A stretch of DNA of 64,000 bases. It comes from Methylopila sp. M107. Lineage in GTDB: Bacteria; Pseudomonadota; Alphaproteobacteria; Rhizobiales; Methylopilaceae. Positions within the stretch are counted from its first letter, which is position 1, and every line of letters starts with the position of its first letter. The notes beneath the pieces are model-generated. The model had not been told where the DNA came from, made no database searches, and saw nothing but the letters and a program-made list of their open reading frames with translations. Location of the stretch: NCBI RefSeq assembly GCF_000384475.1, contig NZ_ARWB01000001.1, positions 3,537,039-3,601,038 of the forward strand. The letters run 5' to 3'. The position numbers and the translations under genes were made by a program. This document shows positions 6,458 through 63,949 of the stretch, piece by piece.

Positions 6458-6553
6458 GTCATGCCCGGCCGGCAGGCCGGGTATCCACGACTTTCTGAGA
6501 GCGTCGAACGGCTTACGCCGAGCCGTGGATACCCGCGAAGACGCGGGCATGAC
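6458..6553. repeat. REP-like palindromic repeat, copy a
   Basis: The element is bounded by GTCATGCCCG at 6458 and CGGGCATGAC ending at 6553, with internal TATCCACGACTTTCTGAGA and a partner segment CCGTGGATACCCGCGAAGAC. The same architecture and much of the sequence recur at 60661-60752. Such GTCATGCCCG...CGGGCATGAC palindromes are abundant intergenic repeats in Rhizobiales. Confidence 0.8.
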
Positions 6554-6605
6554 GCGCAATGGTTCCCGTGCAAATGCGGGCGGCGTCGCGTTCTCGGAAA
6601 ATATT

Positions 6606-7110
6606 CCTTGACATGCCGTTCTTCCTATGTTCTTTTTTGATCACCTCTTCCCGTCGGGAAGGCGTGATCGGTACCGGCCGGCCATGCGGGACGAGGGCGG
6701 CGCCAGCGGTTGGAAGCACCGGAGCTTCGGCCGCGGGACGTCGGACTGCGGCGTCGGGCGCGATGCGCGGTCTCGACCGCTTCGCCTTCGGGCCTTGCGG
6801 ATGAGATCACGGGATCGCCCGGCGTGAAACTGGCCGCCCGCCCTGTGAAGACGGGGCCGCCCTTCAGTGGGCCGTAACGCGACGGGAGGCGAAACTGCCG
6901 GGCCGACGTCCCGAAAGGATGTCTGGACCCGCCAAGTCGCCGCAATGGGACCGGAACCCGGGTTAGTCCCCGGACCGACGGTTCGCCCGACGTCGGAGCG
7001 CGGCTTCTGCAGCCGATGCGAAACGCCGCGCGCGGGGCGCCGGGCGACCGGTTATCCGAAAACTACGGAATGAGCGGTGGCCTGGCGTTCCGCGCCTTCC
7101 TGCTTCTCGC
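6606..7110 (+). repeat. dispersed element copy A, candidate structured RNA
   Basis: This stretch has no credible gene but is homologous along its length to 63506-63949. Shared blocks include CCTTGACAT at the start, GAGGGCGGCGCC, GGGACGTCG, a 29-nt identical core at 6852-6880, CGCCCGACGTCGGAGCGCGG and GGGGCGCCGGGCGACCGGTT, then CCTGGCG at the end. Copy A is about 47 nt longer between the last core blocks. Helices: CTTCCC/GGGAAG near 6645-6660; a 3' domain with CGCCCG (6984-6989) paired to CGGGCG (7041-7046) and GCGCGG (6998-7003) paired to CCGCGC (7026-7031). The second copy keeps each pairing with changed bases. Strand is assigned from the conserved TTGACA at the left end only. Function is unknown. 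Confidence 0.6.
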
Positions 7111-7181
7111 ATGCGCTGTCTGACATCGCTGGCATGACGACGACGGCGAAACCGCCCCGGCGAACAAAGAGGCGCGCCCTC

Positions 7182-7373
7182 GATCCTCCTCCGCGAAGCG
7201 GGGGAGGGGGACCATGCGTCAGCATGGTGGAGGGGGCGGCCTCGCGCCGCCGTTTCGTCTACAAGCGCTATTCCCGCGCGGCGAGGGCTCAGACCGTCGC
7301 GCCCTACGCCCGCCCCCTCCATCGCGCGTTCCGCGCGGTCCCCCTCCCCCATGCTGACGCATGGAGGAGGATC
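7182..7373. repeat. R2-family palindromic intergenic repeat, copy a
   Basis: Left half GATCCTCCTCC...GGTGGAGGGGGC and right half GCCCCCTCCATCG...GGAGGAGGATC are inverted versions of one unit, with internal ACCATGCGTCAGCATGGT-like palindromes. The related unit, with the halves in the opposite order, is at 63137-63289. Confidence 0.75.
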
Positions 7374-7450
7374 AAAAGGTTGGGGGGAGGGTTAGAGCGC
7401 GTAAATCCGTTCCGCTTGTGTTCCATTAACGAACCACGGCTAAATCCAAG

Positions 7451-62955: not shown

Positions 62956-63136
62956 CGACGCACCTCTGGCGGCGCACAAGAACCCGCCCGGCAGAAATTG
63001 CCGGGCGCATGGTTAACGGGGCGTTACGGTCGGCTTCCGTTGCGTCGCAGGCGGACCGTGCGAAGCGCCGCGCGGGGGACGGAGAGGGTGGGGCGATGTG
63101 CTCTCACGGGCGGCGTCGGAAGCGGTGGCGCTCGAC
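62956..63136. other. intergenic region upstream of flhA
   Basis: No gene is seen here. A GGGCGGGTTCTTG / CAAGAACCCGCCC-like part of a hairpin lies at 62975-63005 (AACCCGCCCGGCAGAAATTGCCGGGCG), near the start of flhA, and a GC-rich stretch leads to repeat R2b. Confidence 0.4.
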
Positions 63137-63289
63137 GCCCGCCCCCTCCACCGTGCTGCGCACGGTCCCCCTCCCCCATGCCTGCGGCATGGAGGAGGAT
63201 CCGCGCACGGCCCGCGACGCTTCTTGATCCTCCCCTGCGCCCTTCGGCGCGGGGGAGGGGGACCGCCGAAGGCGGTGGAGGGGGCGGGC
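63137..63289. repeat. R2-family palindromic repeat, copy b
   Basis: GCCCGCCCCCTCCACC at the left and GGTGGAGGGGGCGGGC at the right are exact inverses; inside, CCCCCTCCCCCATG...GGAGGAGGATC and GATCCTCCCC...GGGGGAGGGGGACC repeat the unit of 7182-7373 with halves in the opposite order. Confidence 0.8.
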
Positions 63290-63316
63290 TCGCGCGAGAT
63301 TTCCATGCTGTCTTGT

Positions 63317-63461
63317 TCCCCTCCCCCATGCGGGGAGGGGCTAGGGGTGGGGGTGGTTCAGAACGGAGCTCCTGGGGCGAAGCGGCTCTACGCCGACGCG
63401 GGGCGCTTTATCCGGAGGGACCCCCCCCCCTAACCCCTCCCCGCAAGGGGGAGGGGGACAG
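63317..63461. repeat. R3 inverted repeat with poly-C tract
   Basis: GTTCCCCTCCCCCATGCGGG..GGGGCTAGGGG (63315-63345) and a run of nine C with CCTAACCCCTCCCCGCAAGG..GGGAGGGGGACAGC (63421-63462) are inverted versions of one unit, about 75 bases apart. Confidence 0.7.
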
Positions 63462-63505
63462 CAGCGTCGCGGCGGGTTTGGAAATAGCAGTACTAGGTAT
63501 TTTGT

Positions 63506-63949
63506 CCTTGACATTATTCCCATCATCCCGCACGCTCCCTTCACCTCCTCCCGCCGGGAGGCGCGTCCGGACCGGCCGTTCGCGCGGGATGTGAGGGCGG
63601 CGCCTGCGCGGCTTCAGCACCGGTCTGAAGCCTCCCGGGACGTCGATCGAAGGCTTTTCGCGGCGGAAGCCGGAAGCTTTTGGCCGATGAGGTCAAGGGC
63701 GCCCGGACAACGCCAAGGAACGACGGCCGCCCGCCCTGCACTATGACGGGGCCGCCCTTCAGTGGGCCGTAACGCGGCGGGACTGGTCCGGACCCCTTTG
63801 GGAAACCGAAGGGCCAACGGGTCGCCCGACGTCGGAGCGCGGTTCCTTCGAGCGACGCAAAATCGCCGTGCGTGGGGCGCCGGGCGACCGGTTCTCTAAG
63901 TTTTAAGATGCGGCCGCCTGGCGTCCCCGCCTCCCTGTTCATCCCTCGC
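63506..63949 (+). repeat. dispersed element copy B, candidate structured RNA
   Basis: This copy starts CCTTGACAT at 63506 and ends CCTGGCG...CTCGCG near 63949, parallel to 6606-7110. It keeps the 29-nt core (63748-63776), CGCCCGACGTCGGAGCGCGG (63823-63842) and GGGGCGCCGGGCGACCGGTT. The helices are kept: CCTCCC/GGGAGG replaces CTTCCC/GGGAAG; GGTCGCCCG (63820-63828) pairs over nine bases with CGGGCGACC (63881-63889); GCGCGG (63837-63842) pairs with CCGTGC (63866-63871) using a G-U. An extra stem CATCCCGC / GCGGGATG closes its 5' part. No protein-coding frame is shared over the full length. Confidence 0.6.

Follow-up and report, generated by a model that had tools for sequence, protein, structure and literature searches.

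The window is the whole stretch of DNA that was analysed, 64,000 nucleotides from Methylopila sp. M107. Two gene-free stretches within it, at positions 6606–7110 (copy 1) and 63506–63949 (copy 2), align from end to end in the same orientation, as a preliminary description of the window had reported. Both start with the identical sequence CCTTGACAT, at 6606 and at 63506, and the CCTGGCG pointed out near both ends sits in the 3′ arm of a terminal hairpin of each copy. The shared core described earlier is real, but its longest identical run is 32 nt (GACGGGGCCGCCCTTCAGTGGGCCGTAACGCG) and not 29 nt. Each copy displays the same layout: an A/T-rich upstream box, a TTGACA, a G+C-rich RNA of 400–470 nt and a 3′ hairpin of about 20 bp. 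The two stretches are likely to be divergent copies of one transcription unit. Their likeness is far above chance, because there are 25 copies in the genome and relatives in 13/13 genomes of the genus.

Copy 1 has a MarR-like gene (just under the Pfam cut-off) on one side and ruvC on the other, and a Pfam scan of the window shows copy 2 adjoining an FHIPEP (FlhA-type) gene. All features of the two units given here are on the + strand. The RNA body of copy 1 (subfamily A) is at 6634–7100 and that of copy 2 (subfamily B) at 63535–63936, both with predicted 5′ ends. Covariance models R1 and R2 match copy 1 with 85.1 bits (6642–6744) and 82.3 bits (7017–7100), and copy 2 with 86.4 bits (63541–63646) and 70.7 bits (63857–63935); both copies are among the sequences used to build these models. 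The folds of copies 1 and 2 are stabler than those of shuffled sequences, with MFE z-scores of −4.5 and −2.6. Palindromic intergenic repeats at 6460–6555 and 7180–7380 (TCATGCCCGGCC...; CCCCTCC...GGAGGGG) border the RNA copies, and these recur next to other RNA copies in the genome.

The upstream box of copy 1 has the form GG-N8-CC (GGAAAATATTCC, positions 6596–6607) and is followed by TTGACA at 6608–6613, a probable −35 element. In copy 2, sequence and alignment place the box (GGTATTTTGTCC) at 63496–63507 and TTGACA at 63508–63513. GG-N8 is found immediately 5′ of [C/T]CTTG[A/G] in 52/66 scorable copies (68 in the set). The proposal that TTGACA is a −35 element is plausible, as [C/T]CTTGAC is present at the aligned position in 61/68 copies. 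The box may be an UP element or an operator. The unit may be transcribed independently, with a start that would lie about 25–35 bases downstream of TTGACA. A strict sigma-70 scan did not find a full promoter, and a terminator scan with a loop limit of 8 found none at the 3′ hairpin (termed P7). These scans are empty because the −10 is poor and the P7 loop is longer than the scan allows. No good −10 is visible, and the T-run is weak in the genus.

Copy 1 has CTTCCTGCTTCTC directly 3′ of the P7 hairpin, and further on a trailer, GCTGTCTGACATCGC, at 7115–7129, which carries the motif CTG[TC][CT][TC]GA. The motif occurs at most 80 nt from the hairpin in 26/75 copies, rows that are not independent, where 0.02 are expected. 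Two further families, f32 and f61, also carry the RNA (see below). Most of the f61 and f32 copies shown have a different conserved upstream box, AAAAACTTATCCCC or AAAAACTAATCCCC with small variations, and clear T-runs follow P7 in some f32 copies (CCCTTCTTTTTTG in L189, CCCTTGCTTTTTG in L230).

A GTTC-N7-GTTC motif, which we take to resemble the alphaproteobacterial LexA (SOS) box, is found in copy 1 at 6618–6632. SOS/LexA control was considered and rejected: the motif is in the promoters of only 6/68 copies (L001, L002, L004, L005, L008 and L009, which are A and C copies), all of them in the window's genome and kin by descent. It is absent from the other 62 copies, 43 of which are from other genomes.

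The RNA would fold into a 5′ domain (P1/P2) followed by a closing stem, P3, that joins segments 261–321 nt apart in the window copies. Variable inserts and two arms, P4 and P5, would lie inside P3; the loops of these arms (ACCGGA and GCAYTANGAC, respectively, in the genus) are conserved. The P7 hairpin would end transcription. In copy 1, P1 (6644–6653/6687–6696) encloses P2 (6662–6666/6683–6687), the whole spanning 6644–6696; this is drawn from alignment A2 and a joint fold, and a local hairpin competes with it. P3 (6697–7029) pairs GCGGCG at 6697–6702 with CGCCGC at 7024–7029; it is predicted in part, with covariation in distant relatives. The P4 arm, with its ACCGGA loop, is at 6703–6738, and its inner 7 pairs are all changed on both sides in A2. 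The P5 hairpin (6836–6857) is from alignment A4, and the terminator-like P7 of about 20 bp (7030–7095) is from alignment A3. The P5 loop is usually GCAYTANGAC in the genus and is shorter in subfamily A.

The same elements are found in copy 2. P1 (63544–63554/63584–63596) lies around P2 (63561–63565/63581–63585), together 63544–63596 (A2, joint fold), and P3 (63597–63869) pairs GCGGCG at 63597–63602 with CGCCGT at 63864–63869, as read from the sequence and from covariation among relatives. The P5 hairpin, with a GCACTATGAC loop, is at 63729–63752 (A4), and P7 is at 63870–63930 (R2 model, covariation).

Covariation was counted in 31 of 63 copies, each less than 88% identical to the others. The 63 copies derive from 56 matches in fetched loci minus 12 shorter than 280 nt, which leaves 44, to which 24 copies of the window's own genome were added (68) and from which L006, L045, L128, L140 and L154 (truncated, split or poorly aligned) were removed. 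In A2 (the 5′ domain, 31 sequences), 14/27 pairs show double changes, in 77 cells against a shuffled mean of 27.5. In A3 (P7; 30 of the 31, without L126), double changes are found in 5/20 pairs and 27 cells, against 5.9 in shuffles; the pair count is reached by 4/500 shuffles and the number of pair types by 15/500. A4 (P5) has double changes in 3/6 pairs and 17 cells (3.9 shuffled); its pair count alone is not special, since 130/500 shuffles attain it. A8, which consists of 17 RNAs (16 from f61, 1 from the sister genus g3) out of 22 f61/g3 loci having both domains, shows double changes in 26/48 pairs, in 90 cells against 30.3. The double-change cells of A2, A3, A4 and A8 are reached by 0/500 shuffles, and slid structures score far lower; each structure was drawn from the alignment in which it was tested, and the shuffle controls ignore phylogeny.

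In A8 the strands of P3 are 123–192 nt apart; double changes occur in 5/6 of its pairs, and 99% of its cells are paired. Neither P3 nor P5 is part of any model with which the A8 sequences were found. P4 and part of the 5′ domain are in model R3 and P7 is in R2; therefore their counts are biased towards the model. Covariation demonstrates the structure, and the claim that this is a structured RNA is strongly supported in every domain tested.

The compensatory changes reported earlier are real, but they lie mostly in stems other than those first named. The CTTCCC/GGGAAG hairpin can be read from the sequence, and the minimum-energy fold computed for copy 1 by itself retains this local 5′ hairpin and is without P3, but the genus favours pairing with a strand about 35–40 nt downstream. 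The local hairpin was rejected as the family structure: when the joint fold of the 5′ segment is compared with the local hairpin plus the remainder in 31 genus copies, the joint fold is 5–16 kcal/mol stabler in 28/31. The joint fold of L007, L143, L132 and L135 itself retains the local hairpin, and L161, L167 and L170 differ by less than 2 kcal/mol. P1 is thus ambiguous, being long-range in the genus alignment and in one f61 alignment, and local in another f61 alignment. CGCCCG/CGGGCG is a possible pairing, an inverted repeat in copy 2 (63816–63831/63878–63893), but it would compete with P7. GCGCGG/CCGCGC is paired in the family model, where it is placed inside P7 (7030–7095).

Positions 63816–63831 of copy 2 can pair with the 5′ arm of the P7 hairpin (63878–63893), which would exclude the terminator-like fold. 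From the sequence, this could be a switch.

A blastn search of the host genome, as suggested in the preliminary description, yields many copies. Together with the covariance models it gives 25 in total in the one contig of 4,453,493 bases, of which the window occupies 3537039–3601038. There are four subfamilies: A with 7 copies (including copy 1), B with 15 (including copy 2), C with 2 and D with 1. Subfamily D is divergent; it gave at first only weak blastn matches and later a full copy. Model R3 recovers 24/25 copies and misses L006, whose 5′ domain is severed by a prophage. Recent copies are about 91–98% identical, have dissimilar flanks and are dispersed in the genome. The B copies have about 200–500 bp of upstream intergenic repeats in common beyond the RNA, and therefore some copies spread as larger blocks. 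In copy 2 this block lies 5′ of the RNA at about 63135–63495 and is common to other B copies.

Several of these loci display further features. The shared upstream repeat block has long poly-C/poly-G runs in the B copies L038 and L040 and a TAAGGG repeat array in L041. In the window's own genome (G000), an IS-like insertion, about 1.04 kb long and bounded by the inverted ends GAGCGTGATC/GATCACGCTC, interrupts a B-type copy, L263 (G000:C1:2122134-2123178). An A-type copy harbours a prophage some 43.6 kb long, at about G000:C1 2532309-2575930 (L171, L267, L271). Reading by eye shows that the prophage has TGT...ACA at its ends, that the end sites are repeated and that 5 bp of the target (ATGGG) are duplicated. 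Those of its genes that were scanned match families of phage transposases, DNA-transposition proteins, repressors and tail proteins. We read it as Mu-like. The split A copy (about 2532308 / 2575931) resembled the halves of a phage attachment site; it is rather a transposable-prophage insertion with a 5-bp duplication, and therefore is no evidence for an attachment site. Carriage by viruses was likewise rejected. Two patterns searched in IMG/VR gave 0 and 1 contigs, and what the single contig (L271) shows is no viral copy of independent origin but the prophage-flanked copy also found as L006.

The RNA family is found in 13/13 genomes of the window's genus, in 2/4 of the sister genus g3 and in 0/1 of g2, i.e. 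in 15/18 of its own taxonomic family. A shorter form is present in two further taxonomic families, in 5/30 (f32) and 17/39 (f61) of the genomes sampled, one family being outside the order. An R1 scan of the order gives 15/397 genomes at E <= 1e-4, namely the 13 of the genus and 2 of f32. In a class sample, R2 and R3 each gave 2/385, with the window's own genome counted in each, under strict filters, which pass only about 10 candidates in each genome on to scoring. A DNA query in f61 detects G791 and G789 beside G405 (3/40 genomes). Two contigs of Chelatococcus sambhunathii S14 contain an exact 27-nt core. A shorter paralogue, about 270 nt long, is also present in the genus (L219–L225). The distribution outside the genus is patchy.

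In f32, 7/8 R1 loci have the 3′ hairpin downstream on the same strand, and L217 has the 5′ domain only, with no R2 match. Both domains, ordered and on one strand, are present in 22/27 f61/g3 loci tested, which are 27 of 37 matches (f61 24/30, g3 3/7); the six f61 loci that were not used run into the end of a contig. L294, L296, L302, L310 and L313 have no R2 match. Contigs stop in or beside RNA copies in G006, G014, G815 and G820 (e.g. L153, L156, L157, L172, L227–L229, L291, L298, L309), and draft assemblies therefore probably under-count the family. L226 (G405:C1 about 2500832-2501192, f61) is a divergent homologue found only via its 3′ hairpin. As the 5′ models miss it, the distribution counts are lower bounds.

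In 12/13 genus genomes (G000, G001–G007 and G009–G012; not G008), ETF-QO and/or DUF3617/FKBP are found no more than 4 kb from one of the RNA copies, and ETF-QO is on the strand of the RNA in all nine loci where it is within reach. Eleven such copies (without that of G006) were compared, 7 of them from genomes that have other full copies in the set. Five of these 7 syntenic copies are nearer to a copy elsewhere in the same genome than to any syntenic counterpart. The identities, same-genome against syntenic, are 96.0 vs 71.1% in G002, 91.8 vs 66.2% in G005, 92.7 vs 66.4% in G003 and 84.6 vs 76.1% in G000; G001 is marginal (68.1 vs 67.0%). G009 and G011, which are close to each other, do not follow this pattern. 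When the genome label is mapped on a tree of 63 copies, 20 changes are needed, compared with 37.9 for shuffled labels, an effect to which near-copies add. The short paralogues L219–L225 and the second copies of G010 and G004 were left out of both the tree and the syntenic comparison. This within-genome likeness fits either gene conversion or a master gene that has sent out copies repeatedly.

The main rival explanation is a mobile element that is non-autonomous, bounded by the upstream box and the 3′ hairpin, and spread by a transposase, reverse transcriptase or recombinase coded elsewhere; the fold would then serve mobility, and such an element could also keep its structure. In favour of the earlier suggestion of a mobile element are the dispersed copies of about 91–98% identity with dissimilar flanks, and copies also cluster by genome. 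In the f61 genome G806, L299 and L306 share 93% identity along 369 bp, and their left edge is at about AAAATAAACTTATCC. In G000 the copy 5′ of ruvC has a counterpart in G011 (L164) and none at the same place in G009. However, the comparison of G009 and G011 gives no clean empty site, and neither it nor the aligned A, B and C copies show a target duplication. A repeat search detects no inverted repeat of at least 12 nt at the unit ends of either window copy, the true ends of which are uncertain. No transposase or reverse transcriptase gene, nor any other mobility gene, was found by Pfam among 44 neighbouring ORFs (18 loci and the window), where the sole match to a transposase family is a weak one of RuvA, at sub-domain level. 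Plasmid records (2 queries) and phage records (1 query) gave no blastn match. The conserved unit corresponds to an upstream box plus an RNA plus a terminator, and its position is kept in 12/13 genus genomes. A mobile element is an unlikely explanation, if the strongest of the rivals.

A second rival, a cis-acting leader or riboswitch of the downstream gene, is very doubtful. A terminator-like hairpin closes the RNA, and a crude G+C-phase gene caller applied to 82 copies places the downstream neighbour on the strand of the RNA in 54/80, as such a leader would have it. But it is on the opposite strand in 26/80, the distances to the downstream gene cover a wide range, and the downstream genes vary (RuvC, a FAD_binding_3 protein, DUF3617, SAICAR synthetase, a protease, GNAT, ABC). 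With differing downstream genes, and only 54/80 on its strand, the RNA is therefore not the leader of one gene. The upstream neighbour is co-directional in 45/80, and no gene recurs across families among the 44 ORFs (18 loci and the window).

It is more improbable still that this is a guide RNA, of the omega-RNA or HEARO kind, that belongs to a mobile element of the TnpB/IscB type, an idea also raised earlier and for which no evidence was found. The RNA is structured, several hundred nt long and multi-copy, as such a guide would be; yet the Rfam scans show no HEARO match, the 44 flanking ORFs scanned (18 loci and the window) include no TnpB/IscB-type nuclease, and the stretch from the −10 to the first stem is identical in aligned B copies, unlike guides. 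A decayed or overlapping protein gene has next to no probability: long open frames are present and slightly exceed the shuffled mean (130.8 aa vs 124.6 aa, longer in 25/31 copies), but the excess is small, indels are multiples of three in 1224/6149 pairwise counts (not independent), which is no bias to threes, and substitutions have no consistent codon phase. No reading frame is kept, and there is no coding signal.

The family had not been recognised in the preliminary description, and Rfam scans agree with this: Rfam 15 at the gathering threshold shows only a tRNA in the whole window, and nothing in 10 loci. Permissive Rfam scans of copy 1 and of genus, f32 and f61 loci give only chance-level matches at the RNA (E 0.17 or worse), and stronger sub-threshold matches in those loci (down to 4.5e-5) lie away from it. 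No description of this RNA was found in the portions of the open-licence PMC literature covered, which include passages of PMC2864571 and PMC3927594.

A family of stand-alone, trans-acting structured ncRNA genes, absent from Rfam, is the best explanation of these results, and we consider it probable. The RNA is kept also by distant relatives and therefore probably does a real job. No protein partner was found for it, which counts against this reading. Among possible roles, a trans-acting one of the ribonucleoprotein type is judged most likely, because of the conserved loops and the closed multi-branch core. The RNA may act in trans as a protein scaffold or binding partner, with copy number setting the dose, a proposal to which we give somewhat less than an even chance.

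The copies may stem from an old gene near ETF-QO, and would have spread and been homogenised in each genome by duplication and/or gene conversion. A broader and more tentative proposal is that this is a new alphaproteobacterial ncRNA class forming a high-dose, concertedly evolving, rRNA-like gene set for a ribonucleoprotein, which persists from an ancestral locus and was re-amplified independently in several lineages, up to 25 copies per genome.

Bacteria have few large structured RNAs, and work on such RNAs has tended to bring unexpected complexes to light. The present family has a core that is compact and covaries, and a locus from which it is likely to have arisen; genomes with 1–2 copies lend themselves to knock-outs, and the 25-copy genome to questions of dosage. 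It is a test case for the spread and within-genome likeness of bacterial RNA genes beyond rRNA and tRNA.

OLE, GOLLD and ROOL are RNAs of several hundred nt with a gene of their own, an intricate conserved fold and little or no protein coding. As far as the excerpts drawn on describe them, the present RNA resembles them in length, in having its own gene, in its intricate conserved fold and in its scant coding. It differs in having no Rfam match, many chromosomal copies per genome and no known partner gene. GOLLD and ROOL occur in a phage/tRNA context; none is known for this RNA. The HEARO/omega-RNA of IscB-type elements is likewise structured, multi-copy and dispersed. The present RNA, unlike it, has no adjacent nuclease among the genes scanned and no Rfam match, and it lacks a variable end like that of a guide.

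Multi-copy rhizobial sRNA families (e.g. RFM SmelA075, PMC3927594), in the passages of that paper covered, are likewise paralogous RNA genes in Rhizobiales, but this RNA, unlike them, is about 400–470 nt and has several covarying domains. Neither Chelatococcus nor Parvibaculum occurs in the main text of PMC3927594. In evolution only, rRNA operons offer a likeness: they are multi-copy RNA genes more alike within than between genomes. rRNA is an unrelated RNA, and homogenisation of the present family is suggested by the identities within and between genomes. By kind, this RNA belongs among the large structured bacterial ncRNAs; by family, it appears to be new.
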